From the NCBI RefSeq assembly GCF_002008315.2, contig NZ_MVDG02000001.1:4356188-4420187 (forward strand): a stretch of 64,000 nucleotides of DNA, in the 5' to 3' direction. Source of the stretch: Arthrobacter sp. KBS0703. GTDB lineage: Bacteria > Actinomycetota > Actinomycetes > Actinomycetales > Micrococcaceae. Of this stretch, positions 7,198-64,000 are shown piece after piece. Position 1 is the stretch's first letter, and every line of letters starts with the position of its first letter. Made by a program: the position numbers and the translations under genes. The notes under the pieces are model-generated. The model worked only from the letters and a program-made list of their open reading frames with translations, did not search any database and was not told the DNA's origin.

Positions 7198-8482
7198 CTA
7201 GGAAGCGGCGGTTGCAGTGGATGCGGGGGCCTGGGCGGCCAGTGATGCCAGGCGCGAGATGGCGAGTTCCGCATAGAGAGCGGCCCCGTCAGCCAGCACG
7301 CCGTCGTCGAACGTTGCGTACGGTGAGTGGTTGAACGGCGAGGTGGCGTGGTCTGTGCCGGGAGGCACAGCGCTCAGGCCGATGAACGTGCCCGGCACCT
7401 CGGCGAGAACGCGGGAGAAGTCCTCCGAGCCGCCCAGCGGGGTGGCCCACCGCGACAGCCTCGATTCGCCGAAGAGCCTGGCGATGACGTTTTCCGCAGT
7501 GTGCGTCTCGGCCTCGTCCGTGATGGTGAGCGGATACTCCTGCTGGTAGTCCACGTGGACGTCGAGGCCGTGCGCGGCCGCGATTCCCTGGAGCAGCCGG
7601 GGCACGGAGTCCATCATCCGCTGCCGGGATTCGTCGGAGAAGGTCCGGATGGTGGCCTCGATGCGGGCGGTCTCCGGGATGACGTTGCGCTTGGTGCCGG
7701 CCTGCAGCACGCCCACGGACAGGACCACGGGATCAAACATGTTGAACTGGCGGGTGACCATGACCTGCAGGGCGGTCACCATTTCCGCGGCCGCGGTGAC
7801 GGGGTCCTTGGCCGCGTGCGGGGTGGAGCCGTGGCCGCCGGCGCCCAGCACCGTGACAACCAGGCCGTCCGAGGCGCTGAGCATGACGCCCGGCTTGGTG
7901 CAGAACGTGCCGTGCGGCTCAAGGGAGGAAAACACGTGCATGCCGTAGGCGGCGTCCACGCGCCGGCCGGAGGCATCCAGCACGCCTTCCCGGATCATGT
8001 AGCTGGCGCCGTCGAAGCCCTCCTCGCCCGGCTGGAACATCAGCACCTGTCTCTTATACACATCTAGATGTGTATAAGAGACAGCCGGTGCCGGCGTTCC
8101 GCGAGGAGCGTGGCCGCGCCGGCGAGCATGGACGTGTGGAGGTCGTGGCCGCACGCGTGCATGGCGCCGTCGACCGTGGAGGTGTAGTCCACCCCGGTCT
8201 TCTCCTGGACGGGCAGCCCGTCCATGTCGGCGCGGAGGAGCACCGCCGGGGCGCTGCCCGGCGTCACGTTCGCGGCGCCGCCCGTCGCCCCGCCGCGCAG
8301 GACGGCGGTGACCGACGTCGTGTCCTTGCCCAGCGTGATTTCGTACGGCAGGCCGTCCAGGGCCTGCAGGACCTTTCCTGGGTCCGCGGCAAGTGGAGGC
8401 CGATCTCCGGCTCCCGGTGCAGGTCGTGGCGGAGCCGGGCAATATCGCCCTGCATCTCCCGGGCGTCTGCGGCAATCGGCAC
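7198..8482 (-). CDS. M20-family amidohydrolase, disrupted by adapter sequence and a frameshift
   Basis: The product resembles hippurate hydrolase and N-acyl amino-acid amidohydrolases, dinuclear-metal enzymes that cleave amides. Metal-site motifs are visible: ADMDGLP, HACGHDLH, QPGEEGFDGA and GGSEDFS. The start is GTG 8482, with GAGGAG upstream. Two breaks occur. A single A is missing in the run at 8374-8376 (frame passes from LPRTQE to VLQALDGLP). At 8047-8084 a 38-bp Nextera junction adapter separates LLAERRH from VLMFQPGEEG, with about five codons lost. Both look technical, so the organism probably has an intact gene. The divergent AsnC-type gene is the likely regulator. Confidence 0.85.
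8047..8084. other. Nextera mate-pair junction adapter (artefact)
   Basis: The 19-mer CTGTCTCTTATACACATCT is followed directly by its reverse complement. This is the Tn5 mosaic-end junction created in Nextera mate-pair libraries, not bacterial sequence. It replaces about five codons of the M20 gene. Confidence 0.98.
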
Positions 8483-8523
8483 GTGTACTCCTCGTCTGTG
8501 GTTCCGGCGTTGTGGGTCTATTC

Positions 8524-8540
8524 TGAAGTGGCCTACTTCA
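8524..8540. promoter_or_regulatory. Inverted repeat TGAAGT-n5-ACTTCA in divergent promoter region
   Basis: The perfect 6-bp inverted repeat TGAAGTGGCCTACTTCA lies in the 133-base gap between the M20 gene (start 8482, minus) and the AsnC-type regulator (start 8616, plus). Its position, 42 bases upstream of the M20 start and 75 bases upstream of the regulator, suits an Lrp/AsnC operator serving both. Binding is inferred. Confidence 0.5.
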
Positions 8541-8615
8541 CAGCCCGCCAAAGTGCTGGAAAAATGCATATAGGGTGCTGAATGCGCAGGATTCGCGCAG
8601 AACGGAGGGATCGCC

Positions 8616-9653
8616 GTGGAACTCAGCGAGGAGGACCTTGCGCTCATCCATGCCCTGCAGATCGCACCGCGGGTGAGTTGGGCCGACGCCGCCGAGATCC
8701 TAGGCGTCCACGCCACCACGCTCGCGGCCCGGTGGGAGCGGCTGCGGGCGGCCGGCGCCTCCTGGATCACGGCGCACCTGATCGGTGACCCGAAACAGAT
8801 GTGCCTCGCGTTCGTGGCCGTGGACTGCGAGATGAACCGCCGGGAGGACGTCACGGCCCGGCTCGCCGCGATGCCGGAGATCGTCACGGTGGAAGAGGCC
8901 GCAAGCAACCGGGACCTCATGCTGACCGTCATCACGGGATCGCTGGAGGAGTTCAGCACCAACGTGGTCTCCCGGCTGAAGGACATTGACGGCCTGCTCA
9001 AATACCAGACGTCACTGTGCACGAGGCTGCACGCCGGTGGTGATTCCTGGCGGCTGAACGTGCTGAGCCGTGTGCAGCAGGCATCCTTCAGGGCACTCGC
9101 GAAACCCGGGCCCGCGGAGCCCGAGCGTCCCGACGCCGTGCAGGCGCCGCTGCCCGCGAGCCACCTGGCCCTGCTGCCGTTCCTCGCCAAGGACGGGCGT
9201 GCGACTGCGGCCGACATCGCTCGTGCGCTCGGCCGCAGCCCGGCAACGGTCCAGCGGCAGCTGAACCGCGTGCTGGCCAGCGGGATCCTGTCCATGCGGT
9301 GCGAGATTGCGCAAAGGTATTCGGCCTTTCCCGTGACGTGCCAGTGGTTCGTCAACGTCCCGGCCGGGCAGCACGAAGCCGCCGCGGCCGCCCTCCGGAC
9401 CATCCGGAACGTGCGGCTGAGCGCCTCAACCACGGGGCCTACGAACTTCGTGATCATCATGTGGCTCCAGACCCTGGCCGACGTGATGGATGCCGAACTT
9501 GCCCTGCAGCAGAAGGTCCCCGGCATCGAACTGGTCGAAAGCGTCGTCATGCTGACAACCGTCAAGCGGGTGGGCTGGATCCTGAACCCGGACTCGACGG
9601 CGAGCGGCGCCGTCGTCGTTGCTGCCGGATCCGCCCAACTGGGTAGCAGCTGA
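8616..9653 (+). CDS. Tandem Lrp/AsnC-family transcriptional regulator
   Basis: At 345 residues this is about twice the normal Lrp/AsnC length and shows two full copies. The first winged-helix domain spans about 1-60 (WADAAEILGVHATTLAARWERL) with a ligand-binding fold to about 150. The second helix-turn-helix is at about 190-230 (TAADIARALGRSPATVQRQL), followed by a second ligand fold to about 330. GTG 8616 is preceded by GGAGGGA. It is divergent from the amidohydrolase/symporter pair and probably controls it. The last codons (QLGSS and stop) lie inside a 66-bp palindromic repeat. Confidence 0.85.
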   Translation: MELSEEDLALIHALQIAPRVSWADAAEILGVHATTLAARWERLRAAGASWITAHLIGDPKQMCLAFVAVDCEMNRREDVTARLAAMPEIVTVEEAASNRDLMLTVITGSLEEFSTNVVSRLKDIDGLLKYQTSLCTRLHAGGDSWRLNVLSRVQQASFRALAKPGPAEPERPDAVQAPLPASHLALLPFLAKDGRATAADIARALGRSPATVQRQLNRVLASGILSMRCEIAQRYSAFPVTCQWFVNVPAGQHEAAAAALRTIRNVRLSASTTGPTNFVIIMWLQTLADVMDAELALQQKVPGIELVESVVMLTTVKRVGWILNPDSTASGAVVVAAGSAQLGSS

Positions 9654-9699
9654 CGCGCTTCTCAGCGCCGGGTACCGCGTGTGCTGCTACCTACTTGGG
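9634..9699. repeat. 66-bp palindromic repeat, copy 1
   Basis: The arms CCCAACTGGGTAGCAGC (9634-9650) and GCTGCTACCTACTTGGG (9683-9699) pair at 15 of 17 positions, and similarity extends inward. A second element of identical length and near-identical arms lies at 13590-13655. This copy supplies the last codons and stop of the AsnC-type gene and probably folds as its terminator. Confidence 0.75.
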
Positions 9700-9719
9700 A
9701 GGGGGCGTGGGGCGTGGGG
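9697..9719 (+). other. G-quadruplex motif beside an assembly gap
   Basis: The segment GGGAGGGGGCGTGGGGCGTG continues with GGG and fits four runs of three or more G with short loops. It starts in the end of the palindromic repeat and lies 15 bases before the adapter at 9734. It may explain poor read coverage here. Confidence 0.6.
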
Positions 9720-9733
9720 CGGCCGCGGCGGGG

Positions 9734-9771
9734 CTGTCTCTTATACACATCTAGATGTGTATAAGAGACAG
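9734..9771. other. Nextera mate-pair junction adapter (artefact)
   Basis: Complete 38-bp self-complementary junction adapter. It cuts off the C-terminal end of soxR (minus strand) and joins it to G-rich intergenic DNA. How much genomic sequence is missing cannot be judged here. Confidence 0.98.
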
Positions 9772-10233
9772 GCCGGGGGCGGGTTCCCAGCGGCGCGGAC
9801 CGGAACCGCCGGTGCCGAGTTCATCGGCCGGATTCTGCAGCCGGCAGGCCTTGAGGCTGAGGCAGCCGCAGCCGATGCACCCGTCCAGGTCCTGCCGCAG
9901 GTGATGCAGGGCCTCGATGCGGGCGTCCAGTTCCGAGCGCCACAGCCGCGAGAGCCTGGACCAGTCGCGCTTGGTGGGAGTGCGGCCCTCCGGCAGCGAA
10001 TCCAATGCCGTGCGGATGTCCTTGAGCGGAATTCCCACGCGCTGCGAGACGCGGATGAACGCCACCCGGCGCAGCATGTCCCGGCCGTAGCGGCGCTGGT
10101 TGCCCGGGGTACGTTCCGAGCTGATGAGCCCGTTGCGTTCGTAGAAATGAAGGGCCGACGGCGCCACGCCGCTCCGCGCTGACAGCTCGCCGATGGTCAG
10201 GGCCGGGTGCGTTGCGCCCGCCTCGTGTGGCAT
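9772..10233 (-). CDS. soxR: Redox-sensing activator SoxR, C-terminus lost at adapter
   Basis: This MerR-family dimeric activator senses redox-cycling compounds through a [2Fe-2S] cluster. The N-terminal winged helix (TIGELSARSGVAPSALHFYERNG) is complete. A dimerisation helix follows, then the diagnostic C119-x2-C122-x-C124-x5-C130 cluster motif. The frame runs into the adapter at 9771 without a stop, after EPAPG, so a short tail is missing. The gene is divergent from a drug-type exporter whose promoter carries a perfect SoxR-like palindrome. This is consistent with the actinobacterial type of SoxR, which controls exporters and redox enzymes rather than soxS. Confidence 0.9.
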
Positions 10234-10338
10234 GCTGTCCCCCTAGCTCCAGCGACGGCGCCGGCCGGCACCGTCGCCTACCGTGACCGCCGCCCGTGAC
10301 CAGCCCTATGACCGCCCGCCCCTCCCCGAGGCGCAGCC

Positions 10339-10369
10339 TTGACCTCAACCTTAGTTGAGGTTTTACGGT
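10339..10369 (+). promoter_or_regulatory. SoxR-dependent promoter with 19-bp spacer, probably leaderless
   Basis: The -35 is TTGACC (10339-10344) and the -10 is TACGGT (10364-10369), separated by 19 bp, the overlong spacer typical of MerR-family promoters. Within the spacer region lies the palindrome CCTCAACCTTAGTTGAGG (10343-10360), with perfect 7-bp arms, very close to known SoxR boxes. Transcription should start about 7 bases after the -10, which coincides with the exporter ATG at 10377, so the mRNA is likely leaderless. Confidence 0.8.
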
Positions 10370-10376
10370 TGCGTCC

Positions 10377-11756
10377 ATGACTACCGATCAGGCCGCCGTG
10401 CACGAATCCGCCCCGCCGCTTCCCGCCCCGCCAGCCGCCGGGATCCTCCAGCGCCCCTACCTCCTGGTGACCGTTGGCGCGTGCGCGCTGGTGTTCCTGG
10501 CGGCTTTTGAATCCCTTGCCGTGACCACCATCATGCCGGTGGTGAGCCGCGAGCTCGGCGGAGCCGCCCTGTACGCGCTCGCCTTCGCGGGTCCGCTGGC
10601 CACCGGCGTGATCGGCATGGTGGGCGCCGGGAACTGGTCCGACCGCCGCGGCCCCGTGGCGCCGCTGTATGTCTCGGTTGCCGTCTTTGCCCTGGGCCTG
10701 CTGGTGGCGGGCACGGCCGGAAGCATGGCCGTCCTGGTGGCGGGCCGCCTGGTCCAGGGGCTGGGCGGCGGCGCCATGACCGTGGCCCTGTACGTGGTGG
10801 TGGCCCGCGCCTATCCTGCCGTCCTGCACGCCAAGATCTTCGCCGCCTTCTCCGCCGCTTGGGTCATCCGTCCCTCGTGGGCCCGTTCGCCGCCGGGCTC
10901 GTGGCGCAGCTGGCGAGCTGGCACTGGGTGTTCCTCGGCGTCGTGGTGCTTGTGCTGCCGGCGCTGGCCATGCTGGTTCCGGCGCTGCGCAGGGTCCGGT
11001 CCGGCCCCGAGGACCGGCGGCACCGTGGGCCATCGGGCGGCTGGCCTGGGCTGCGCTCGCCGCGCTGGCCGTGCTGGGGCTGAACCTGTCCTCCGGGATA
11101 CCGGTGGCCGGTCCGCTCGTGGCGGGGGCCGCCGTCGTGGTTGCGCTGCTGGCCGTCAGGCCGCTGGTGCCGCGGGGACCCTGACCGCCCGCCGCGGGCT
11201 GCCCAGCGTGATCCTCACCCGCGGGCTCGCGTCCGCCGCCTTCTTCGGGGCCGAGGTCTACCTGCCCTACCTGCTCGTGGAACGCTACGCTTTCTCGCCC
11301 ACGTTCGCCGGCCTCACCCTTACCGGCGGCGCGCTCGCCTGGGCCGCGGCCTCCGGGATCCAGGGGCGCCTCGGCGGGCGGCTGGGCAGTCCCGTCGCGG
11401 TCCGGATCGGCGCGCTGCTGGTGTTCGCCGCGATCGTCCTGGCCCTGGTGACCACAGCCTTCGCCTGGCCGGCCGCCGTCGCGATCTTCGGCTGGATACT
11501 CGCCGGCGGCGGCATGGGACTGATGTACCCGCGGCTGAGCGTCATGACCCTCGCCCTCTCCACGCCGGACACGGAAGGCTTCAACAGCTCGGCGATGTCC
11601 ATCTCCGATTCCCTCGGCGGGGCCCTTGCGCTCGCCACCACCGGGATCGTGTTCACCGCGCTGACGACAACGGCGGCCTCCTTCGCCGGGGTCTTCGCCC
11701 TGACGGCGGTGATCGCCGCAGCCGGGGTCGCCATCGCGCCGCGGGTTGCGGACTGA
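10377..11756 (+). CDS. MFS drug exporter with three apparent single-base deletions
   Basis: The product is an EmrB/QacA-like exporter. The N-terminal helices (VGACALVFLAAFESLAVTTI and the GNWSDRRG loop) and the C-terminal helices from about 11215 onward share one frame; the middle does not. Frame is lost near 10868 (expected WVIPSLVGPF), again near 11030 (expected IGRLAWAALAALAVLG), and restored near 11176 (expected RGTLTARRGL). Each site needs one extra C or G in a short homopolymer. Three losses of one base restore the frame overall, so sequencing error is more likely than decay. The promoter carries a SoxR box, making this the probable SoxR target. Confidence 0.8.
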   Translation: MTTDQAAVHESAPPLPAPPAAGILQRPYLLVTVGACALVFLAAFESLAVTTIMPVVSRELGGAALYALAFAGPLATGVIGMVGAGNWSDRRGPVAPLYVSVAVFALGLLVAGTAGSMAVLVAGRLVQGLGGGAMTVALYVVVARAYPAVLHAKIFAAFSAAWVIRPSWARSPPGSWRSWRAGTGCSSASWCLCCRRWPCWFRRCAGSGPAPRTGGTVGHRAAGLGCARRAGRAGAEPVLRDTGGRSARGGGRRRGCAAGRQAAGAAGTLTARRGLPSVILTRGLASAAFFGAEVYLPYLLVERYAFSPTFAGLTLTGGALAWAAASGIQGRLGGRLGSPVAVRIGALLVFAAIVLALVTTAFAWPAAVAIFGWILAGGGMGLMYPRLSVMTLALSTPDTEGFNSSAMSISDSLGGALALATTGIVFTALTTTAASFAGVFALTAVIAAAGVAIAPRVAD

Positions 11757-11805
11757 GGCTCGGGCCGGGGACCGGCGCCGGCGTTTGCGGGCTGGCACCG
11801 GCGTT

Positions 11806-12402
11806 TCAGAGGCGCGGCAGGACCCTGTAGTAGAGGTGGGTGACGGCGTCGCCCTGGATCGCCCTGGTCTGCTCCAGTTTCACCGGCGCCGCGGCGAGGT
11901 TGTCGAAAAAGCGGATCCCCTCGCCCAGCAGCCAGGGCGCCAGGTTGACCCGGATCTCGTCCACGAGCCCGGCGTCGATGGCCTGCCGGATGACGTCGGG
12001 ACCGGCCAGGCCCACATCCTTGTCGCCGGCGAGCGCCGTCGCGGCCTTGACCGCGTCGGCGAACCCGGTGGTGACGAACGTGTACGGGATTCCCTCGCGG
12101 GGCCAGCCGTCCGGAACGGAGTGGCTGAGCACCACGATGGGGCAGCTGATGGGGTGCTGCCCGTCCCAGCCGTGCGTGATGTCGAAAATCCTGCGGCCCA
12201 CCAGCAGGGCGCCCGCGGTGGACATGGTGCGGCGCAGGTGCTCTGCGCTCGCCTCCGTGACGTGCCAGGTCATGTCCGGCCGGGCGGTGGGCACGGCCAC
12301 CGGCCCGTTGCTGTACCAGTCGAAGAGGCCGTTCACGGAGTCGTCCGGGAGGGCGATGTAGCCGTCCAGGGACATCGTCATTTCAGCGACAAGCCTTGCC
12401 AT
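11806..12402 (-). CDS. Dihydrofolate reductase family protein (RibD C-terminal fold)
   Basis: The 198-residue protein starts MARLVAEMTMSLDGYIALPD, the typical opening of DHFR/RibD-like reductases, and contains LLVGRRIFDITHGWDG, matching the family's nucleotide-binding region. Such proteins use NADPH, but the substrate is usually unknown and this one need not act on dihydrofolate. AGGAG lies 9 bases ahead of the ATG. The gene is convergent with the exporter. Confidence 0.85.
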   Translation of the reverse strand: MARLVAEMTMSLDGYIALPDDSVNGLFDWYSNGPVAVPTARPDMTWHVTEASAEHLRRTMSTAGALLVGRRIFDITHGWDGQHPISCPIVVLSHSVPDGWPREGIPYTFVTTGFADAVKAATALAGDKDVGLAGPDVIRQAIDAGLVDEIRVNLAPWLLGEGIRFFDNLAAAPVKLEQTRAIQGDAVTHLYYRVLPRL

Positions 12403-12444
12403 GGATCCACACTCCTAGCGTCGGCATTTAGGGGAGATCGGCTT

Positions 12445-13164
12445 TTAGTCGGCGGCCTTCAGCCGGGTGGCGCGGAGGACGGCGTCGGCGAGGATGGCCA
12501 CCTGCCCGTCGGGGCCGGTGGCTTCCCGTTCCCGGCTTTCCGCCACCTCCACGCTCCACTCAGGCGGCGCGATGCCGAGTTCGGCCACCAGCTGCTCAGC
12601 GGTGAAATACCTCTGCGTTCCCAGGTGGCTGTCGGTGTCGTGGCTGCCCGCTGCATGCCTGGCCCACGGCGGCAGGCCGTCCGGGTGGTGCCCCACCACA
12701 AGCAGCGTCCCGCCCGGCCGCACGGCGTCCGCGGCAATCCGGTGTGACCGCTGCCAGGGCATTTCCGTGGAGTGCAGGAATTGTGCGGAGACGAGGTCGA
12801 ACCGCTCCTCGGGTACCCATGTTTCCAGGTTCCGCTGCAGCCACGTGACGCGGTGGCCGGACCTTGAGTCTGCCGCGTGGGCGGCCGCCCGTTCCAGCGC
12901 GACGGCGGACACATCCACCGCGGTCACCGTCCAGCCGTGCTCCGCGAGCCAGAGGGCGTCCGCGCCTTCGCCGCAGCCGACGTCCAGCGCGGTTCCGGGT
13001 GCGAGGCCGGCGGCTTCGGCGACGAGCTGCGGGTTGGGCCGGCCGCTCCACACCCGGGTCCGGCTCCGGTACATTTCGTCCCAAAGCTGCGCGGCGCTGT
13101 CGTGCCCTTCTTTGGCGCGGCCCGCTGCGGCCTGACCTTCGGGGGAGTGCTGGTGGTCGGTCAT
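12445..13164 (-). CDS. Class I SAM-dependent methyltransferase
   Basis: The SAM-binding motif I is ALDVGCGEGADALWLAEHGW (residues about 59-78), followed by the acidic motif II (TAVDVSAVALERA) and a motif near PGGTLLVVGHH. The 239-residue size and pattern resemble TehB/thiopurine-like methyltransferases that act on small molecules. The substrate is unknown. It starts 2 bases after the stop of the DUF1801 gene, with AAGGA in that gene's last codons, so the two are cotranscribed. Confidence 0.82.
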   Translation of the reverse strand: MTDHQHSPEGQAAAGRAKEGHDSAAQLWDEMYRSRTRVWSGRPNPQLVAEAAGLAPGTALDVGCGEGADALWLAEHGWTVTAVDVSAVALERAAAHAADSRSGHRVTWLQRNLETWVPEERFDLVSAQFLHSTEMPWQRSHRIAADAVRPGGTLLVVGHHPDGLPPWARHAAGSHDTDSHLGTQRYFTAEQLVAELGIAPPEWSVEVAESREREATGPDGQVAILADAVLRATRLKAAD

Positions 13165-13166
13165 GG

Positions 13167-13562
13167 CTATTGGTCCTTCTTAATCCTGCGCCAGCCGCCG
13201 GCGCGGTTGGTGGCGATGATGGACCTGAACATGTCGGTCAGCGCCGGGGCGTTGATCGACTCGCCTTCGGAGAAGGCCACCGTGCGGCCCGTCTTGTTCT
13301 CGTGCCCTCCGGTGATGAGGTGCTCCGGGTCAGGGGTCAGCCCGCCGTCGTAGAGGAAAACGTTGACGTGGTCCTTGGCGGCGAGAAGCGCGCAGATGTT
13401 TCCCTGGAGCTCGAAGTAGGGCTGGCGGGTGCGCTTGATGGTTTCCGCCACCTCCGGATCGGCGGCGTGGACCAGCTCGCGGACCTCCCGGCACACGGCC
13501 TGCTGCCACTGGGGCAGCGCATCGATGTAGGCGTCCACACGCGGATCTGCGGTGTAGTCCAT
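13167..13562 (-). CDS. DUF1801 (YdhG-like) protein
   Basis: The 131-residue product shows the DUF1801 pattern: DYTADPRVDAYIDALPQWQQ, a core around IKRTRQPYFELQGNICALLA, and a C-terminal half with HVNVFLYDGG. The biochemical role is unknown; the fold resembles a small-molecule-binding protein. ATG 13562 was chosen because upstream codons run into a palindromic repeat. It is first in a two-gene operon with the methyltransferase. Confidence 0.8.
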   Translation of the reverse strand: MDYTADPRVDAYIDALPQWQQAVCREVRELVHAADPEVAETIKRTRQPYFELQGNICALLAAKDHVNVFLYDGGLTPDPEHLITGGHENKTGRTVAFSEGESINAPALTDMFRSIIATNRAGGWRRIKKDQ

Positions 13563-13589
13563 GGGGATACCCTGCCACAGAATCCCTGG

Positions 13590-13655
13590 CCCAACTAGGT
13601 CGCAGCACACGTCGTTTTCAGGGGCTGGAACGGCGCGAGCTGCTACCTAGTTGGG
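13590..13655. repeat. 66-bp palindromic repeat, copy 2
   Basis: The arms CCCAACTAGGTCGCAGC (13590-13606) and GCTGCTACCTAGTTGGG (13639-13655) pair at 16 of 17 positions. Element length equals that of copy 1 at 9634-9699, and the loops share a TTCTCAGCGCCGG / TTTTCAGGGGCTGG core. It lies between the nirD stop and the DUF1801 start and may terminate the nir operon. Confidence 0.75.
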
Positions 13656-13661
13656 GGTGTA

Positions 13662-14036
13662 TCAGGGCAGCTGCAGGACGATGTTCCGGTTCCCGTCCGC
13701 GAACACCGGATAGCTGCGCAGCGGGCCGGCGCCGGTGGTGGAGCATCCGGTATCCAGCTCAAAGGCGTGCTGGTGCAGCGGGCACATCACCACTGCCTGG
13801 TCGATGGTGCCGTCGGCGATCGGGCCGCCCTTGTGCGGACAGATGGCGGAGACGGCGCGGAGCGAACCGTCCCGGAGGCGGAACACCGCGATCTGCTCGC
13901 CCGCCACCCCAAACGCGCGGCCCTCGCCCACGGGAACCTGGTCCAGCGGGCCAAGGTGGTGCAGGCCGGCGCCCTGGCCGGTGCCCTGGCCGGCGCCCTG
14001 GCCGGCGCCCTGTCCGGGGCTCAGGTCGGTGCTCAT
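13662..14036 (-). CDS. nirD: Nitrite reductase small subunit NirD
   Basis: NirD is the Rieske-like subunit of the cytoplasmic NADH-dependent assimilatory nitrite reductase. This 124-residue protein keeps Rieske ligand-type motifs (CPHKGG and CPLHQHAF), so a [2Fe-2S] cluster is plausible. Many NirD proteins lack these cysteines, so this resembles the cluster-retaining group. The N-terminus carries a (GQGA)4 low-complexity stretch encoded by a 12-bp tandem repeat. Its start overlaps the nirB stop by 4 bases. Confidence 0.92.
   Translation of the reverse strand: MSTDLSPGQGAGQGAGQGTGQGAGLHHLGPLDQVPVGEGRAFGVAGEQIAVFRLRDGSLRAVSAICPHKGGPIADGTIDQAVVMCPLHQHAFELDTGCSTTGAGPLRSYPVFADGNRNIVLQLP
13965..14012 (-). 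repeat. Four 12-bp tandem repeats inside nirD
   Basis: Unit GCCGGCGCCCTG (plus strand) occurs four times head to tail, the second copy with one C to T change. It encodes Gly-Gln-Gly-Ala/Thr repeats ahead of the Rieske domain. Copy number is likely to vary between strains by slippage. Confidence 0.85.
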
Positions 14037-24001: not shown

Positions 24002-24174
24002 GACAGATCCTTTGGCCAGTCTTGTCGCGGTCCGGGTACTGAACCGTCGTCCGGAGGTCCGCCGAACGGGACCTTGGTCCTCAGCCTAGCAACGCCCGAC
24101 GGCGGCGGCCACTGTTGGTGGCAAAGCTCACCGGAGCTCGGTGCAGGCCGCCGGCCGTCAGGGACTGCCCGCTG

Positions 24175-27221: not shown

Positions 27222-27572
27222 ATGGCAAACGACCAGCTCAGCATGATCTTCGCTGCCCTGGCGGACCCCACGCGGCGCGCCATCCTGGCGCGCCTGGCCG
27301 AGGGGGAGGCCACGGTCAACGAACTCGCGGAGCCGTTTGAGATCAGCCTCCCGGCCGTCTCCCGCCACCTGAAGGTATTGGAGGCAGCCGGGCTGATCTC
27401 GCGCAGCCGCAACGCGCAATGGCGCTCCAGCCGCCTCGAGGCCGCGCCGCTCGGCGCTGCCACGCAGTGGATGGAGACGTACCGCCGCTTCTGGGACATG
27501 AGCTTCGACAAGCTCGATGCCCACCTGAAGAGAATCCAGACCACGGAAAGGGAGGAAGACCAAAATGTCTGA
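27222..27572 (+). CDS. ArsR-family transcriptional regulator
   Basis: The 116-residue winged-helix repressor has IFAALADPTRRAILARLAEGEATVNELAEPF and the recognition helix SLPAVSRHLKVLEAAGLI. It lacks the ELCVCDL metal-binding cysteines of ArsR/SmtB, so it is a non-metal member. This type is almost always paired with an AHSA1-like gene, as here (8-base overlap with the next gene). It probably controls its own operon. Confidence 0.92.
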   Translation: MANDQLSMIFAALADPTRRAILARLAEGEATVNELAEPFEISLPAVSRHLKVLEAAGLISRSRNAQWRSSRLEAAPLGAATQWMETYRRFWDMSFDKLDAHLKRIQTTEREEDQNV

Positions 27573-28058
27573 GCAACTGACCCCAATGCCATCCACGGCG
27601 CCGGACGAGTTGATGCTTGTCATCACCCGCCACTTCGAGGCGCCCATTCAAACCGTGTGGTCGGCCCTGACGGATCTCAACCAGGCGCCGGCATGGTGGG
27701 GGCCGCACGGGTTCCACGTCCCGCGCGAGACCATCGAGGCCGACTTCGAAGTCGGCGGACGCTACCGTGCCTGCATGGTCCAGGAGGAGACCGGCCAGCG
27801 GCTTTGGTGGAGCGGCATCCACACACGCATCGAACCGCCCACCACCTTCGAATACACCTACGCCTGGGACAACGAAGACGGCACGCGGGGCTACGAGACT
27901 GAAGTGGCCATCAAGCTGGAGGAGGAGGCCGGCGGCACCCGGATGACCTTCACCCCTGTCTCTTATACACATCTAGATGTGTATAAGAGACAGGCCACGG
28001 CGGCGGCTGGGGCGAGGCCTTTGACCGGCTGGCAGCCCACCTGAGGTCCGCCGCATAG
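27565..28058 (+). CDS. AHSA1-like SRPBCC protein, interrupted by adapter
   Basis: N-terminal part: LVITRHFEAPIQTVWSALTDLNQAPAWWGPHG and GRYRACMVQEETGQRLWWSG, typical of AHSA1 domains that follow ArsR genes. At 27956-27993 a Nextera junction adapter interrupts the frame after RMTFT. Beyond it the correct continuation is in another frame (HGGGWGEAFDRLAAHL) and ends at TAG 28058. About a dozen codons are lost at the junction. The organism's gene is probably intact at about 155-165 residues. Confidence 0.85.
27956..27993. other. Nextera mate-pair junction adapter (artefact)
   Basis: Complete 38-bp self-complementary junction adapter inside the AHSA1-like gene. Flanking protein sequence shows that the true genomic gap is small, about a dozen codons. 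Confidence 0.98.
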
Positions 28059-28085: not shown

Positions 28086-28976
28086 TCACTGGCCGGCTGA
28101 CTCGAGTTCGCCCCGGAGGTTCCGCCGCGCCGCTTCCAGCCACAACTCGCGGGCACGGCGGCTGTGGAACAGCGGGTCGAGTTCCAGCAGCCCGCGCACG
28201 ACGGCGGCCCGGCCGCCGCGAAGTCGGCGTCGCCTTTGTATAAGAGACAGCGCGTAGTCTTCGCGGACGGCGGCCACGTACCTGGCGTAGGGCTCCGGTT
28301 CGCCGCCGAGAACCGACAGGTCCGCGTCGCAGAGGAGGGCGCCGTCGTCGTCCCCTGCCGGAGGCCGGTGGTCAGACGTCAGGCGGACCAGCCGTGCCAC
28401 CTCCGCAACGTCCCCGGCGGGGAGTCCGGCCTCGGTGAGCCTGAGCTCGGCGAGGCGGGCCGACTCCTCCTCGTCCAGGCCGGCGGCGCCGCGGTAGACG
28501 GCGTCGTGGAACCAGGCCGCGAGAACCACGGTGCGCGGGGGTTCTGCGGGTTCGGTGAGCAGGTCCAGCGCCTCGAGCACCGCCAGCAGGTGCGTGCAGC
28601 CGTGATACCGGCGGTGGCTCTCGCTCCAGCGGTCAAGAAGGTCCAGGAACAGGGCATCGTGGCCGGCCATCACCGTGTTCCAGCGGTTGAGCAACGGGGT
28701 CTTCAGCGATGTGTTGCGCTCGCGGGCGGGGATCCTGAGTCCGCTGGCGATCAGCTTCCGGACCAGGATCCGGGCCTCCACGGGAATGGCGCCCGCCGCT
28801 ACGAGCGCATCGTAGCGGCGCTCGGGCACATCGTAGTGGTCGCCGTCGAACGCCCGCTCCGGGATCTCAGCCGCGGCGGCAAACGCGTGCAGTTCTGCCA
28901 GTGAGGCGTCCGAAATCAGGTGCGAAAAGTGTGTTCCGTGCGCAGGCCAGAGAGGCGGATCCAGGTAAACGGCCAT
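28086..28976 (-). CDS. DUF4031 plus HD-type domain protein, with adapter fragment inside
   Basis: Residues 1-80 match DUF4031 (VYLDPPLWPAHGTHFSHLISD). The following part is an HD-like metal phosphohydrolase domain with YHGCTHLLAVLEAL, VLAAWFHDAVY and LLCDADLSVLG. The fused layout is common in actinobacteria; the substrate is unknown. Near residue 242 the sequence ALSLIQRRRRLRG is spurious. It derives from a 14-base adapter piece (28237-28250) and a missing base shortly after. The expected reading is a run like DADFAAGRAAVVRG. Confidence 0.85.
   Translation of the reverse strand: MAVYLDPPLWPAHGTHFSHLISDASLAELHAFAAAAEIPERAFDGDHYDVPERRYDALVAAGAIPVEARILVRKLIASGLRIPARERNTSLKTPLLNRWNTVMAGHDALFLDLLDRWSESHRRYHGCTHLLAVLEALDLLTEPAEPPRTVVLAAWFHDAVYRGAAGLDEEESARLAELRLTEAGLPAGDVAEVARLVRLTSDHRPPAGDDDGALLCDADLSVLGGEPEPYARYVAAVREDYALSLIQRRRRLRGGRAAVVRGLLELDPLFHSRRARELWLEAARRNLRGELESAGQ
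28237..28250. other. Partial Nextera adapter (artefact)
   Basis: TGTATAAGAGACAG is the last 14 bases of the mosaic-end sequence. It replaces a few codons of the HD-domain gene; a base also appears missing near 28212-28222. Confidence 0.93.
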
Positions 28977-37773: not shown

Positions 37774-38873
37774 ATGGGTTTCTCTGAGCGCGGGAGCCGT
37801 CCCGACATTCCCCGCCGCCGCCCGGGCCTCCGGCATATGGCAGTGCTCGCCACGGTGGCGATGCTGGCCGCCTGCGGGCCTGTCGCCAAGGAAGCGCAGA
37901 GGCTGCCGCTCGGAGAGCTGCCGCCCGTGGACCCGCCCACCACGACGGCCCCTTCCTCTGCCCCTGTCTCTTATACACATCTAGATGTGTATAAGAGACA
38001 GCCTTCTGCCAACCCGCTCCGCGCCCCCCGCGGCCCCAGCGGAACCGGCCGCCAGCGCGGCGCCTCCCGCCGCCGCTCCTGCCGCCCCGCCCTGTCTCTT
38101 ATACACATCTCACTGTGCCCCCGATCAATCCGCTCACGGCCAAGCTGCCGGTGGGCGACCTGCCCGGATGGAAACAGGTCTTCCGGGAGGATTTCAACGC
38201 CGGCGATGTTCCCATCGGTGCTTTTCCCGGCCCGGCGTACGAGGCCAATTGGAGCGCGGGGTACAAGGACGGGATTCCGGACACGGCCGGTCAAACGGGG
38301 AAGAACTCCCGCTATTACCCGACCAAAGTGCTCAGCGTCAAAAACGGAATGCTGGACTGGTTCCTCCATACGGAGAAGGGCATCTCCATGGGCGCCGCGC
38401 CCACGCCCAAGATTCCGAACAACAGCTCCAATCCGCACCGTGCCAACAGCCTGCTCTACGGCAGGATCTCAGTCCGGTTCAAGGGGGATGCCCTTCCGGG
38501 TTTCAAAACGGCGTGGCTGTTGTGGCCGGACAGCGGCGTGTGGCCGAGGGACGGGGAGATCGACTACCCCGAAGGTGACCTCGCCACATCTTTCTACGGA
38601 GCCGTGCACCACCGCAGCAACAACCCGCATGAGTCCGACCTGATCAGGTCCTACGCCCTGTTCACCACGTGGCACGTCGCCACCATGGAGTGGAGCCCCG
38701 GGAAGGTCGAATTCTTCCTGGACGGTGTTTCGCTGGGAGCCGGAACCAGCAAGGTTCCGAACACGCCCATGCACTACATCCTGCAGACCGAATCGTGCCT
38801 GCCGGTCTGCCCGGCGCCGACGACGACCGGGCACGTCTACCTCGACTGGATCGCCATCTGGACGAAGGGCTGA
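37774..38873 (+). CDS. Secreted GH16 glycoside hydrolase lipoprotein, broken by two adapter pieces
   Basis: The N-terminus (from ATG 37774) has a lipoprotein signal with lipobox LAAC, followed by a Pro/Thr-rich linker. The catalytic domain lies in a different frame from about 38111 to the stop at 38873. It shows the GH16 nucleophile/acid signature EIDYPEG (E-x-D-x-x-E), FREDFNAGDVP and HVATMEWSPGKVEFFLDG. Adapter sequences at 37964-38001 and 38092-38110 flank a 90-base piece that reads as a Pro/Ala-rich linker in a third frame. The real gene is probably continuous. It likely cuts a beta-glucan or galactan, fitting the neighbouring polysaccharide operon. Confidence 0.82.
37964..38001. other. 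Nextera mate-pair junction adapter (artefact)
   Basis: Complete 38-bp junction adapter in the low-complexity linker of the GH16 gene. Repetitive, GC-rich linker sequence probably caused the coverage gap. Confidence 0.98.
38092..38110. other. Single Nextera mosaic-end sequence (artefact)
   Basis: One 19-base mosaic end (CTGTCTCTTATACACATCT) without its mirror copy, 90 bases after the preceding adapter. It shifts the GH16 frame. Confidence 0.97.
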
Positions 38874-54710: not shown

Positions 54711-54725
54711 CCTTTGCCGGTCATA

Positions 54726-58313: not shown

Positions 58314-58334
58314 GTATCCACCAAAGTGTCTGGG

Positions 58335-58360
58335 GTTGCATTCAATGCAACGCTGTTGCA
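58335..58360. promoter_or_regulatory. Nested GTTGCA/TGCAAC operator candidate
   Basis: The order is GTTGCA (58335), TTCAA, TGCAAC (58346), GCT, GTTGCA (58355). This gives two overlapping perfect 6-bp inverted repeats sharing the middle half-site. It lies 22-47 bases upstream of the MHS transporter start, suiting a repressor. The IclR protein encoded nearby is the leading candidate. Confidence 0.55.
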
Positions 58361-58563
58361 CCAGATTAGGCGTGACATACGCCACAGTCAATACTTTTGG
58401 GACGATAGCCCGTGATTTTGGCGCGAAAGGGTCGGGGCGGCGCGCTCGATCGCGGGTCAGGGCTGACCGACGAATTCGTTGCATCCAGTGGAGTGTCGTT
58501 GCGGTAACACTGCCCCGACCGTGCGCCGGGGGCGGGCTGCAGGCGCCGCATCCTGGCGGTCTA

Positions 58564-58592
58564 TTGACACCGCTTTGTGACGGCTGTCATAT
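58564..58592 (+). promoter_or_regulatory. Sigma-70 type promoter
   Basis: TTGACA (58564-58569) and TCATAT (58587-58592) are separated by 17 bp, an excellent match for vegetative promoters. Transcripts would run through the palindrome at 58631 into the GMC/APC remnants and on to mscR. Confidence 0.72.
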
Positions 58593-58630
58593 TTCCAGTA
58601 CGCACTATGTGCACCGTGTTGTGTAATACG

Positions 58631-58652
58631 CAATTGACGGGAACGTCAATTG
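58631..58652. promoter_or_regulatory. Perfect 9-bp inverted repeat, likely operator
   Basis: CAATTGACGGGAACGTCAAT continues with TG. The 9-bp arms CAATTGACG/CGTCAATTG surround GGAA. The element lies about 40 bases after the predicted -10 and 89 bases before the GMC start, a typical place for a repressor. The regulator is unknown; a TetR-type protein would suit the geometry. Confidence 0.6.
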
Positions 58653-58740
58653 CCCAAGGTGCACCCGCTAGCTTCTCGATCAAGGCACGGTCGGGCGTTC
58701 CCGCGCCGGATCCGCACGACGTACAAGGAGACTTCGCACC

Positions 58741-58805
58741 ATGACAGAGACCAACTACGACTACGTCATCGTCGGCGGGGGAAGCGCCGGTTCGGTGCTT
58801 GCCAC
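58741..58805 (+). pseudogene. N-terminal remnant of a GMC oxidoreductase
   Basis: ATG 58741, preceded by AAGGAGA, opens MTETNYDYVIVGGGSAGSVL, the FAD-binding start of choline dehydrogenase-type GMC enzymes. After about 21 residues the sequence jumps to the end of a permease gene. More than 500 residues of the oxidoreductase are missing. The start signals are perfectly kept, so the deletion (or misassembly) looks recent. Confidence 0.82.
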
Positions 58806-59102
58806 CCGGGCCGGAAGACGCCCACCGTGGCGGGCATCGTCATCGCCGTCATTCCGCTGATCGTCAACGTTTCACAGCCGGCGATCTTCACCATCCTCTC
58901 CAGCATCAGCATCGTGCTGATCTACCTGTCCTACCTCCAGTGGGGCGGAGTTATCTTTGTCGGCACGGTGGTGATCGGCGGGGCGCTGCTCTACCGCCTG
59001 CGGATCAGGCACCGGACCGGGGTCCTGGCCGAACACGCAGCCGCGGCGGTTGTGCCGCAGGAGGTCCCCGCCGGGGATTTCGAACCTCAACGGGTCAGCT
59101 AG
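58806..59102 (+). pseudogene. C-terminal remnant of an APC-type permease with internal deletion
   Basis: In another frame, the sequence from about GRKTPTVAGIVIAVIP through QPAIFTILSSISIVLIYLSY is typical of the late helices of APC permeases. It then joins directly to LQWGGVIFVGTVVIGGALLY, which normally lies about 70 residues further on. The join falls at a short shared TACCT. The stop is at 59102. Two deletions have therefore left a small remnant. Related genomes would be expected to carry a full permease after the GMC gene. Confidence 0.75.
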
Positions 59103-59160
59103 ATTGGCAACGGGTGCCGTTGCATCGAGTCCGAAGGACTGACGAAAGGAACACCAGCTC

Positions 59161-60249
59161 ATGGTTCACAAAGTAAAAGCGGTCATTGCCAGGGAAAAGA
59201 ACGCCCCGGTCTCGGTGGAGACCATTCTGGTGCCGGATCCGGGCCCGGGCGAGGCACTGGTGGACATCCTCACCTGCGGCGTCTGCCACACGGACCTGCA
59301 CTACAAGCAGGGCGGCATCACCGACGATTTCCCCATCCTGCTCGGCCATGAGGCCACCGGCGTGGTCAGCGCCGTCGGCCCCGACGTCACCGACGTGGCT
59401 CCCGGCGACCGCGTCATCCTGAACTGGCGCGCGGTCTGCGGCCAGTGCCGGGCCTGCGCCAAGGGCAAGCCGCAGTACTGCTTCAACACCCACAACGCCA
59501 CCCAGAAGATGACCCTGGAGGACGGCACGGAACTGTCGCCCGCACTGGGGATCGGCGCCTTCGCCGAGAAGACGCTCGTTGCCGCCGGGCAGTGCACCAA
59601 GGTGGACGAGGACGCCGACGCGGCCGCCGTCGGGCTCCTGGGCTGCGGCGTGATGGCCGGAATCGGGGCCGCCATCAACACGGGCGAGGTCCAGCGCGGC
59701 GAATCCGTGGCCGTCATCGGCTGCGGCGGCGTGGGCATTGCCGCCATTGCGGGCGCCAAGCTGGCCGGAGCCACCACGATCATCGCCGTGGACATCGATG
59801 ACAACAAGATCGAGATGGCCAAGTCACTCGGCGCCACCCACGGCGTGAACTCCCGCGCCACGGATCCGGTCGATGCCATCCGCGAACTCACCAACGGCTT
59901 CGGCGCCGACCTCGTCATCGACGCGGTGGGACGTCCCGAGACGTACAAGCAGGCGTTCTACGCGAGGGACCTCGCCGGCCGCGTGGTGCTGGTGGGCGTG
60001 CCCACCCCCGAGATGCAGCTCGAACTGCCCCTGCTGGATGTCTTTGGCCGCGGCGGCTCGCTGAAGTCCTCCTGGTACGGGGACTGCCTGCCCTCCCGGG
60101 ACTTCCCGATGCTGGTCCAGCATTACAAGCAGGGCAACCTCAACCTCGACGCCTTCGTGTCCGAACGCATCACCATCGACCAGGTGGAAGAAGCCTTCGC
60201 CAAGATGCACGAGGGCAAGGTCCTCCGTTCGGTGGTTGAAATCGCATGA
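59161..60249 (+). CDS. S-(hydroxymethyl)mycothiol dehydrogenase (formaldehyde detoxification)
   Basis: The 362-residue zinc-dependent medium-chain dehydrogenase oxidises the mycothiol adduct of formaldehyde with NAD. Catalytic zinc ligands lie in [10 protein letters not shown] and GHEATG; structural zinc cysteines in [15 protein letters not shown]; the NAD site is [20 protein letters not shown]. The pattern matches actinobacterial MscR/AdhE2. Its stop overlaps the next gene by 4 bases. Formaldehyde would arise from sarcosine or methylated amines, which suits the creatinase next door. Confidence 0.93.
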
Positions 60250-60866
60250 GCATCACCATCGAGAACCTCGTCACCTCCGGCACCTTTTCCCTCGACGGCG
60301 GCACCTGGGATGTGGACAACAACGTCTGGATCGTGGGCAACGACGACGAATGCGTGATCATCGATTCTCCGCACGACGCCGCAGCGATCATCAGCCAGGT
60401 CCGCGGCCGGAAGGTCCTGGCCATCCTGCTCACGCACGCGCACAACGATCACATCGGCGCGGCCCGCGCCGTGGCGGAGGCCGTGAACGCCCCCATCCAC
60501 CTCCACCCGGAGGACCTGGTGCTGTGGGAACAGGTCTACCCGGACATCAAACCCGATATGTACCTTGCTGACGGGGACGTGTTCCAGGTGGGCGGGGCGA
60601 CCCTCAAGGCCATCCACACCCCCGGCCACTCGCCGGGCTCCATCTGCTTCCTCCTGGCGGAGGAAGGAACGGTGTTCACCGGAGACACGCTCTTCAACGG
60701 CGGCCCGGGCGCCACCGGACGGTCCTACAGCGATTACCCCACCATCGTGGCCTCGATCCGGGAACGGCTGCTGACGCTTCCCGCCGAGACGGTGGTCCGC
60801 ACCGGGCACGGCGACAACACCACCATCGGCGCGGAACGGGAGACACTGGCCCGCGTTGAGCAATGA
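60246..60866 (+). CDS. MBL-fold hydrolase partner of the mycothiol dehydrogenase
   Basis: The 206-residue metallohydrolase has [13 protein letters not shown] (H-x-H-x-D-H), [28 protein letters not shown] and [13 protein letters not shown]. Its coupling to mscR by a 4-base overlap suggests it hydrolyses the product, S-formylmycothiol, taking the role of S-formylglutathione hydrolase. That specific activity is inferred from context. Confidence 0.88.
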
Positions 60867-60913
60867 GCGCCAGCCGGTGACCGCACCGCCCTGCTGACCC
60901 TGTTTGACCACAG

Positions 60914-60960
60914 AACGACGGCGACACTCCGGCAAGTCCGGAGTGTCGCCGTCGTTTTTT
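60914..60960. terminator. Perfect 19-bp terminator
   Basis: AACGACGGCGACACTCCGG (60914-60932) and its exact complement (60938-60956) surround CAAGT, followed by more T to 60960. It ends the mscR operon. The following ~190 bases up to 61160 hold nothing I can support. Confidence 0.95.
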
Positions 60961-61159
60961 GGCAAAAAGGGTCAGGACGGCCGAATTGGGCAAATCCTCC
61001 GGCCAGCGAGAATCCACCAGTAGGGGTCGTCCGTTCCTAGACGTCGGGTGAGTATCTGTTGATCGGACTCTTGGACGGGAAACCGGCGGCTCACCTGAGT
61101 GCGGCCCTCCGGAGCGGATCGCACGCCACCGCCAAGCCAGGAGATTCCCTGCACCCACA

Positions 61160-62650
61160 TCAGCGGCCACCCTCGGGCCGGCCGTTCATGAGGCGCGGAA
61201 CTGCCAGGGGATTGTCGTCGCGGAGTGCCTCCGGCAGCAGGTGCTGCGGGAAGCCCTGGTAGGCGACCGGGCGCAGGAAGCGTGCAATAGCCGCCGTGCC
61301 CACCGAGGTGCTTCCCACAGCGGTGGTCGCCGGGTAGGGTCCGCCGTGCTGTTGTGCGTACGTCACGGCGACACCCGTTGGCCACTGGTTCCAGACCACC
61401 CGCCCGGCCTTGCGGGCAAGCACCTCCACCAGCGCCTCTACCTGGCAGGAGTCCGTTCCGTGGATCGTGGCGGTTAGCTGCCCCTCGAAAGTCTCGGCAA
61501 GCTCGGGAAGCTGGGACTCGTCGTCGTACGTCACCACGACGGCGGTGGGCCCGAAGCATTCGGTTTGGAGGGCATGCGGCTCGGCGAGCATGTCGGCCGC
61601 GGTGGTGAGCAGGAGTGTGGGACCTGGCGGATCGGCCAAGGGGCCTGCTCCCTGTGCCAGTACCTCAAGGCGGTGATTGGACTGCAGGCCCTGCAGCACC
61701 TCGGTATATCCGGACCGGATCCGCTCGTTGAGCAGAGGCGCGGCTGGCGGCAGAGCGGCGTCGCGCAGGGCCTCCACCAGCCCGGACCGGGCTGGGACGA
61801 ACAATGTACCGGGCTTCGTGCAGAATTGTCCGGCCCCGAGCGTGAAGGAGTTGACGAAGCCCTCGGCTATCTCCGCGCAGCGTTCAGCGGCCGCGGCCTC
61901 GGTGACGAAGGCCGGGTTGTTGCTGCCCAGTTCACCGAAGAAGGGGATCGGTTCGGGCCGGGAACTGGCGATGTCGAAGAGGGCGCGTCCGCCGGGGATG
62001 GAACCCGTGAATGCGCCGGCTTTGACCCTTGGGTCGCGCAGGGCCGCAGCTCCGGCGGCGGTCCCCGCAATGAGCGCGAACGTGCCGTCGGGAGCGCCTG
62101 CCTCGCCGAGTGCCGAGACGACGACCTCCGCCGTCAGCCGGGACAGCCCGGGATGGCCGGAGTGGGCTTTGAGTAGTACGGGGCTGCCCGCGGCAAGCGC
62201 CGACGCGGTGTCTCCGCCGGCCACGGAGAACGCGAAGGGGAAGTTGCTGGCGGCGAACACCACCACAGGCCCCACGGGCACGAGCACGCGCCGCAGTTCT
62301 GGCCGCGGGGCGCCCATCGGCCAGTCGGCGTCGGCATGGTCGATGCGGGCGTCAAGGTAGCCGCCGTCGCGCAGTGCTTGGCCGAAGAGGCGCAGCTGGA
62401 AGGTGGTGCGCTTGAGCTCGCCGCGGAGCCGCGCCTCGGGCAGGTGGGTCTCCCGTCCGGCCACGGGAACGAGCTGGTCGGCGGCGGCATCCAAAGCGTC
62501 GGCGACGGCGTCGAGCAGCTCGGCGCGCTCGGCGGGACGGAAGGCGGCCAGTGCTGCCGTAGCCGTCTGGGCCGCTGCCAGCAGTCGTTCCAATTCGGCG
62601 TCGGTAGTCGGCGGCAGTACTACGGCGGTGGTCTGGGCGATCGCGGTCAT
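61160..62650 (-). CDS. Aldehyde dehydrogenase, alpha-ketoglutaric semialdehyde type
   Basis: The 496-residue enzyme has VFAASNFPFAFSVAGGDTAS (Asn of the oxyanion hole), FGELGSNNPAFV (general base Glu) and GAGQFCTKPG (catalytic Cys). The GQFCTKPG form and overall pattern fit NADP-dependent 2,5-dioxovalerate dehydrogenases that finish hydroxyproline, glucarate or arabinose breakdown. AAAGGAG precedes ATG 62650. The upstream oxidoreductase points to hydroxyproline. Confidence 0.87.
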   Translation of the reverse strand: MTAIAQTTAVVLPPTTDAELERLLAAAQTATAALAAFRPAERAELLDAVADALDAAADQLVPVAGRETHLPEARLRGELKRTTFQLRLFGQALRDGGYLDARIDHADADWPMGAPRPELRRVLVPVGPVVVFAASNFPFAFSVAGGDTASALAAGSPVLLKAHSGHPGLSRLTAEVVVSALGEAGAPDGTFALIAGTAAGAAALRDPRVKAGAFTGSIPGGRALFDIASSRPEPIPFFGELGSNNPAFVTEAAAAERCAEIAEGFVNSFTLGAGQFCTKPGTLFVPARSGLVEALRDAALPPAAPLLNERIRSGYTEVLQGLQSNHRLEVLAQGAGPLADPPGPTLLLTTAADMLAEPHALQTECFGPTAVVVTYDDESQLPELAETFEGQLTATIHGTDSCQVEALVEVLARKAGRVVWNQWPTGVAVTYAQQHGGPYPATTAVGSTSVGTAAIARFLRPVAYQGFPQHLLPEALRDDNPLAVPRLMNGRPEGGR

Positions 62651-62689
62651 GCGCGGTCTCCTTTCGGGAGGCAGTTCAGATGGGTAAGT

Positions 62690-63963
62690 TCAGTTGTCCG
62701 TAGTTTCAAGCGCGGCAAGTTCGCCGATGCCCACTGGCGCGGCCAAAGGTCGCTTTGCAGAGCCGGACAGGCTTTCAGCGGTGGGCGTAGCGCCCGGGCC
62801 GGCCCCAATGCAGGCGGCGGCGAAGCCGCACACCCGGCCTTGGCACCAGCCCATTCCAGCGCGGGTGAACGACTTGAGTGTCCGGACGTCGCGGGCTCCC
62901 AGGCTCTCCCGGGCGTCGGTGATCTGGCAGGCTGTGACTTCCTCGCAGCGGCACACGATCGTCTCGGGGACGAGCCAGTCCTGCCAGGCTGCAGGCACGG
63001 GGTGCGCCCGGTGCATGGCCTCGGCGAAACGCCGGTGCCGCGTGGCGGTTTTCTCCGGCAAAACGGTCCCGCCCGCCGCAGCAGTGCCCGCCGCGAGGCC
63101 CTCAAGCACGGCCAATGTTGCCCCGCCGACGCCGGTGATCTCACCCGCAAGAAACAGGCCCGGGACACTGGACTGCTGGCGCTCATCGACGACGCCGACC
63201 AGCGACCCGTCCGCATCGAGCCGAGTCTGGATGCCAAAGGACAGAGGCAGTTCCATCTGCGGCGTGAAGCCCCAACCGAAGCCGACCACGTCCACGTCCT
63301 CGTACACACGCTCGGTGCCGGGCAGCACCCGCCCGTCGGCGTCGACTCTGGCCGTCCTTACGCCGGAAACGTGATCCGTTCCGAGGACCTCGGTGACGAT
63401 GCTGCGCGTGCGGTACGGAATCCGGTGCCGGGCGAAGACAGCCGCATACTCCGCGCCCTCAAGGACTTTCTCCGGCACTCCCGCCGCGGCACGCAGATGC
63501 GGCAGCCAGGCGGTCGGGGAGGAGGACTCAAGCACCGCGAGGACCTTGCCGCCGGCCTCGGCGATATTCGCGGCAACCGGGAGCAGGAAAGGACCGGTCC
63601 CAGCAATCACGAAGCGTTTCCCGGGAAGCATTCCGTTGGCCTTGATGAAGGCCTGGATGCCGCCGGCAGCCATCCCACCGGGAAGGTCCCAGCCGGGAAC
63701 CGGAAGCTGGCGGTCGTAGCCGCCGGGACACAGGACAAGACGGCGCGCGACGACGATTTTACCCACGCTTGCCTCTAAAGCAGCCGCCGCGACGGTAGGC
63801 GTCGTGCGCAAGGTGAAGCCGGCGTCGTCCCCTTGAGCTGGATGGATTTGCTGCGACATCCAGACCTGGAGCCCGGGAAGGTAGGTGATCCGCCCGCGGC
63901 CGCGCGCGGCGTCGAACCTCGCACGGAGGTCGAGGTAGCTCTTCCATCCGTGGTGCCCACGGC
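62690..63963 (-). CDS. FAD/NAD(P) oxidoreductase with BFD-type [2Fe-2S] domain, N-terminus cut at adapter
   Basis: Reading upstream from the internal methionine at 63859, the frame stays open (GHHGWKSYLDLRARFD, ITYLPGLQVW) until the adapter at 63964. The gene is therefore only truncated there, missing the N-terminal Rossmann fold. The second nucleotide site is VIAGTGPFLLPVAANIAEAG. The C-terminal domain has IVCRCEEVTACQ and GWCQGRVCG, the four cysteines of a BFD-like cluster. This architecture is found in opine/hydroxyproline dehydrogenase alpha-type subunits and HcnB-like proteins. It lies 39 bases upstream of the aldehyde dehydrogenase. Confidence 0.85.
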
Positions 63964-64000
63964 CTGTCTCTTATACACATCTAGATGTGTATAAGAGACA
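63964..64000. other. Nextera mate-pair junction adapter at window end (artefact)
   Basis: The adapter is complete but for its last base, which would fall outside the window. It truncates the oxidoreductase gene. What lies beyond may not be the true genomic neighbour. Confidence 0.97.

Follow-up and report, generated by a model that had tools for sequence, protein, structure and literature searches.

The 38-base units scattered through the DNA analysed here are, with near certainty, leftover Illumina Nextera mate-pair junction adapters, that is, an artefact of library preparation and assembly. This DNA, called the window below, is a stretch of 64,000 nucleotides from Arthrobacter sp. KBS0703 (C1:4356188-4420187). 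Of the readings considered, only a leftover junction adapter agrees with the sequence of the unit, its copy number, the signature in its flanks, the missing target duplications and the related genomes, and on each of these counts the interpretation offered by an earlier sequence-only reading of the window is supported. The artefact is ordinary in kind and unusual in number.

Identity and number of the adapter units

Adapter letters are present at all seven places of the window where the sequence-only reading had located them:

8047..8084, no strand assigned: full 38-base junction unit, exact match, in an M20 peptidase gene; 15 genomic bases absent relative to both relatives
9734..9771, no strand assigned: full 38-base unit, exact match, at the 3' end of a MerR/SoxR-type gene
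27956..27993, no strand assigned: full 38-base unit, exact match, in an AHSA1/SRPBCC gene; 33 genomic bases absent relative to both relatives
28237..28250, no strand assigned: 14-base right-hand adapter piece, replacing about 4 bases in a DUF4031 gene
37964..38001, no strand assigned: full 38-base unit, exact match, towards the N-terminus of a GH16 protein; 16-17 bases absent
38092..38110, plus strand: lone 19-base mosaic end, in the same GH16 gene as the unit at 37964
63964..64000, no strand assigned: 37-base copy of the 38-base unit, at the 3' terminus of contig C1

Five of these copies had been described as complete. Four of them (8047, 9734, 27956 and 37964) are indeed exact 38-mers, but the fifth falls one base short, since the window ends where contig C1 ends (base 4,420,187). 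The single mosaic end is an exact 19-mer as claimed, and the 14-base piece is present, with the terminal 12 bases of the unit also matched there. The unit is its own reverse complement, a property that had been correctly recognised. The chance expectation for both the 19-mer and the 38-mer in the window is 0, as estimated from 100 dinucleotide shuffles.

According to excerpts of the papers that describe these oligonucleotides, the ring adapter for circularising mate-pair fragments corresponds to all 38 bases of the unit (PMC7357533), and its 19-base half is the Tn5 mosaic end of Nextera-type libraries, derived from the ends of IS50 (PMC3046479). An excerpt of PMC6298255 describes tagmentation with biotinylated junction adapters, junction capture and trimming by NxTrim.

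The assembly as a whole (4.86 Mb, 37 contigs, completeness 99.99%) was searched, a check that had been proposed with the sequence-only reading, and contains 251 copies of the 38-mer; the 19-mer half occurs 342 times in forward and 339 times in reverse orientation. If every lone half counts separately, this corresponds to 251 + 91 + 88 = 430 adapter places, or one every 11 kb. For the terminal 12-mer the two strands contain 345 and 351 copies; these totals exceed those of the 19-mer, so about 15 more copies are cut shorter. Reversed-pattern controls gave 0 for the 19-mer, the 38-mer and the 12-mer across the same assembly. Three of its contigs (C20, C30 and C37) consist entirely of N in the copy examined.

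The 19-mer is absent from 200 of the 205 other species of the genus, and both close relatives used for comparison (G130 and G074) have a count of 0 and lack the adapter at the homologous places. The remaining five species contain 1-14 copies each, adding up to 34 places, 19 of which fall in the first 210 bases of a contig. Within a phylum sample of 396 genomes the 38-mer was found in this assembly (251 copies) and in one other genome (once).

The flanks of the units carry the target preference of Tn5. The consensus used in scoring, AGNTYWRANCT, is given in excerpts of PMC3046479 and PMC4744016. From stretches of the assembly we gathered 87 distinct adapter places, 60 of them with both halves whole, which provided 147 outward flanks. 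The preference was scored at seven positions, using 50 other offsets in the same 147 flanks as control. The score at the junction was 3.03, as compared to 2.26 at the control offsets (sd 0.12, highest 2.60). Enrichment was observed for G at flank position 1 (81 of 147, 53.6 expected), A/T at position 5 (63 of 147, 39.3 expected) and A/G at position 6 (98 of 147, 72.2 expected); the exception is position 3, where T was not enriched (13 of 147, 20.8 expected). Since the preference is found on each side separately (right flanks z 4.7, left flanks z 5.9), both sides of the units are true tagmentation ends that are independent of each other. Full units from other assemblies, among the matches listed, gave a score of 3.63 versus 2.49 for 290 flanks (z 8.7).

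Joins across hidden gaps

Five 20-kb pieces, and a sixth for the window end, were compared with the two relatives, whose identity in the AHSA1 region is about 90%. The window and three further 20-kb stretches contain 27 places with at least one whole half, and all of these except the window-end copy, 26 in number, were measured. Placement was confined to both flanks within 3 kb on one strand. In one or both relatives, all 26 measured places have a co-linear placement with the two flanks on the same strand and no more than 1.1 kb apart. We regarded a gap as clean if it was measured in both relatives with at most 13 unaligned flank bases and agreement within 1, a rule that was set after seeing the gap table. 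By this rule 13 of the 26 places lack 15, 33, 16-17, 24, 35, 34, 24, 43, 29, 37, 6, 17 and 25 bases (median 25). The first two values belong to the M20 and AHSA1 genes, for which small gaps had been claimed, and the comparison of breaks with related genomes that had been suggested thus returned clean gaps of 6-43 bases. The other 13 places are found in DNA that is rich in indels, repeated or crowded with adapters, and their values range from -46 to +949; at one of them (L177:15622) the alignment points to a loss of 234-258 bases, with about 175 flank bases left unaligned. Judged from these alignments, the gaps appear to be mostly short, and longer ones may occur.

At the unit at 37964-38001 the gap amounts to 17 and 16 bases in the two relatives. 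The lone half at 38092-38110 gave a net value of -6 in both, with 21 unaligned flank bases, and at 28237-28250 the sequence is 10 bases longer than in either relative. The sequence-only reading had left the gaps at soxR (9734-9771) and at the window end as undefined in size, a description that no longer applies to either. The soxR gap is small, with net values of +7 (G074) and -14 (G130) in indel-rich intergenic DNA with 17 and 28 unaligned flank bases, and the copy at 63964-64000 marks the place where a contig stops rather than a concealed gap.

We also counted adapter-free indels of at least 5 bases that are common to both relatives and more than 60 bases from an adapter, within about 96 kb covered by both. 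The assembly has 11 missing and 10 extra stretches, some rows being one event listed up to three times. As these numbers reveal no excess of missing stretches, adapter-free false joins were rejected as a general phenomenon.

The match of G074 to the window stops 5 bases before the terminal adapter, and 146 bases further on this genome matches contig C2 in reversed orientation, from about 344,259 downward. In G130 the window match and the reversed C2 match are separated by 141 bases. Since both relatives place C2 about 141 bases past the last genomic base of the window, C2 probably adjoins C1 on the chromosome. The last 2,972 bases of C2 have no match at that position in the relatives, so the strain may carry extra DNA between the two contigs. 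Among the 30 contig ends examined, two end inside the adapter: the window end of C1 and the 3' end of C4 (18 bases).

These observations lead to the question as to how such joins may arise. Two 19-base Tn5 mosaic ends are ligated head to head as tagmented fragments circularise, and the adapter would then have stayed, untrimmed or half-trimmed, in the reads that entered the assembly. In GC-rich stretches few ordinary reads may survive, coverage would be low, and contigs would run into the adapter from junction reads on either side. Because the 38 bases are self-complementary, two such contig ends would resemble an overlap and could be merged by way of the palindrome, concealing a gap that would typically span from a few bases to a few tens. 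Given that the flanks are separate tagmentation ends, tens of bases apart and in the right order, merging of ends over the adapter is the simplest route, and the joins were most likely made through false overlap of reads at the palindrome. At 13 of the 87 places the unit is cut precisely in the middle, which hints that some reads were half-trimmed beforehand, and 37-base units occur at 10 of the 87, including the window end. A literature search, judged by title, found no paper on palindromic junction adapters in assembly.

The GC content of the 100 bases around 86 places is 74.1%, as compared to 67.1% in random stretches of the assembly (p ~1e-25). An excerpt of PMC4744016 describes a GC-rich bacterium in which coverage was ultra-low at GC-rich motifs. 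Among the matches listed, the flanks are also richer in GC than their loci in Collinsella (7 of 7), Bittarella (4 of 4) and a Flavobacteriaceae MAG (7 of 8). The trend is unclear, among the same matches, in Westiellopsis (3 of 5), Scytonema (6 of 12), an Ideonella MAG (9 of 19), two Enterococcus assemblies (27 of 58 and 4 of 13) and the rest (11 of 18). Since the enrichment is not general, GC-rich dropout is one likely cause and not the only one. Breaks driven by hairpins were rejected, as the folding of single flanks is not stronger than that of GC-matched 60-mers (p 0.40).

The joining step also has a competitor, to which we assign somewhat less than an even chance. Gap-filling or repeat-resolution software may have made the joins by walking through the adapter, treated as a repeat node with mate-pair support, instead of by simple end overlap. 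The window is free of N, as are nine more 20-kb stretches of C1 and three from C2, and therefore scaffold gaps in the tested stretches were either filled or never written. This observation and the recurrence of exact-centre halves and 37-base units speak for such a route, but its end result would be the same as that of overlap joining.

It is improbable that each copy is the real circle junction of one mate-pair molecule, with flanks from loci kilobases apart. Although a raw junction read has such content (excerpt of PMC6298255), the co-linearity of all 26 measured places, on one strand and within 1.1 kb, leads us to reject circle-junction rearrangement for these places, which sample the large contig, small contigs C3-C15 being left out.

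The idea that the units are true insertions of a Tn5-derived or MITE-like palindromic element that spread in this genome deserves almost no credence, even though hundreds of copies of a palindrome bounded by IS50-type ends do look like a small inverted-repeat element. Insertion of Tn5 duplicates 9 bases of its target, but the longest repeat shared by left and right flanks is 3 bases (all 86 places with full flanks, out of 87). At all 13 cleanly measured places genomic bases are lost instead of duplicated, so that the relatives, in place of an empty site, hold the 6-43 bases that the host lacks. Since target duplications are missing and bases are lost, we reject a native element. The sequence of a commercial oligonucleotide is reproduced without change in all 251 full copies, the half is absent from nearly all other species of the genus, and some contigs terminate within the unit. 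Gene decay by native mutation does not apply either, as the breaks in the M20, AHSA1, GH16 and DUF4031 genes coincide with adapter letters; the one additional missing stretch, in the M20 gene, is free of them. The earlier warning against taking these sites for insertion elements or gene decay was therefore justified.

Genes garbled by the adapter

The unit contains one open frame, which is identical on both strands and reads VSYTHLDVYKRQ; the other two frames stop within the unit. The following genes of the window are affected:

7198..8537, minus strand: M20 metallopeptidase gene cut by a unit (Pfam PF01546 on both halves)
9772..10233, minus strand: MerR-family (SoxR-like) regulator (Pfam MerR models), its last few residues and stop being adapter-derived
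27565..28044, plus strand: AHSA1-domain ORF reading through the adapter (reading frames, Pfam)
28086..28976, minus strand: DUF4031 gene (Pfam DUF4031; alignment with 7 homologues)
37774..38873, plus strand: gene of a GH16-domain protein, broken twice (Pfam GH16 on 38115-38873)

The DUF4031 and GH16 genes add to those named earlier, as the copies at 28237, 37964 and 38092 lie in genes as well. The N-terminal half of the M20 protein ends at an adapter stop codon, and in the C-terminal half the adapter is translated as VSYTHLDVYKRQ. Each relative has a single open frame that aligns with the two halves, at only 61-67% identity for the N-terminal one. About 25 bases near 8257-8281 of the same gene are absent relative to both relatives, approximately 190-215 bases from the adapter and with no adapter letters at the site; this missing stretch is either a second, clean false join or native variation. 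The SoxR frame matches the relatives to residue 156 of 157 and 155 of 162, and only the last residues are lost. The two breaks in the GH16 gene (37964 and 38092) are bridged by single frames of 355 and 360 residues in the relatives, which match both outer pieces.

The AHSA1 pieces match one open frame in each relative. Their chimeric product (P0121, 159 residues), encoded on a contig of 4,420,187 bases, stands as a cluster of its own among the proteins of the collection that was searched, and its Pfam label is a normal one. The adapter peptide occurs only in this protein among 182 proteins (the best 120 of 6,659 plus 62 of 62), and the nearest named homologues, among the matches listed, come from Arthrobacter and Pseudarthrobacter. 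A literature search found no paper naming the adapter-coded peptide. The DUF4031 ORF stays open across the 14-base piece, and about a dozen residues are garbled. Beside this piece, at 28200-28236, lies a second small compensating frame error, which suggests poor base quality next to the join.

Two further features of the window are worth recording. A near-perfect inverted repeat of about 66 bases occurs at 9634-9699 and 13590-13655, with RNA folding energies of about -40 and -43 kcal/mol. It is found in 6 copies in 304 kb of the strain's own sequence and has many matches in both relatives, and it looks like a dispersed repeat family of the genus. One copy is located beside the unit at 9734, but a link to the adapter is unconvincing, as 1 of the 6 copies is within 150 bases of an adapter at a chance of 0.067 each. 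The sole Rfam match in the window at the gathering score is a Guanidine-III riboswitch at 24011-24077 on the minus strand (52.7 bits).

Reach of the artefact and relation to known systems

A scan of one genome per species found the 38-mer in at least 120 stretches from at least 19 named assemblies. Among the matches listed, three records titled chromosome carry it (CP051244, CP017948 and CP051236; L055, L131, L145 and L150). It is present in 5 of 72,556 plasmid records, and in one of these, Serratia entomophila plasmid NZ_MT039157.1 (L271), labelled complete and circular, the last 38 bases are the unit. The search returned 0 of 20,395 E. coli records and 0 of 50,697 phage records. Six IMG/VR contigs contain the 38-mer in seven stretches (L151-L157), and in four contigs of sample 3300021189 the unit lies within 50 bases of a contig end. 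Terminal adapters that mimic terminal repeats in IMG/VR were considered and dismissed, as neither of two whole contigs has the adapter at both ends.

On balance, we see roughly equal odds for and against a more general proposal: that the self-complementary adapter is a systematic maker of hidden gaps, with seamless false joins in a few tenths of a percent of the species representatives among prokaryotes, records labelled as chromosomes included, and that its one open frame VSYTHLDVYKRQ, shared by the two strands, gives rise to spurious protein clusters, which could serve as a search tag for such joins.

For the present genome the consequences are more immediate. It is 99.99% complete and the tested stretches of its two large contigs are free of N, yet it holds about 430 adapter places. 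Completeness scores and N counts miss this error, and a search for the 38-mer finds it. Gene-loss calls, pseudogene counts, searches for small palindromic repeats and protein clusters derived from this genome will be wrong at the adapter places, and one chimeric protein has already entered the protein collection searched.

Among known systems, a Tn5/IS50 insertion is related to the unit through the mosaic end, which comes from the ends of IS50 (PMC3046479, excerpt). In contrast to such an insertion, the 38 bases are too short for a transposase, lack the 9-base duplication and are accompanied by a loss of bases at the site. Ordinary Nextera read-through adapter at contig ends, as in the five other species of the genus, contains the same 19-base mosaic end, whereas the copies described here are mainly doubled 38-base units, internal to contigs and present in hundreds. 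The closest match is the Nextera mate-pair junction adapter, with which the unit shares all 38 bases, the palindrome, the two Tn5 mosaic ends and the Tn5-type flanks; the difference is that here it sits within finished contigs rather than having been trimmed from the reads.
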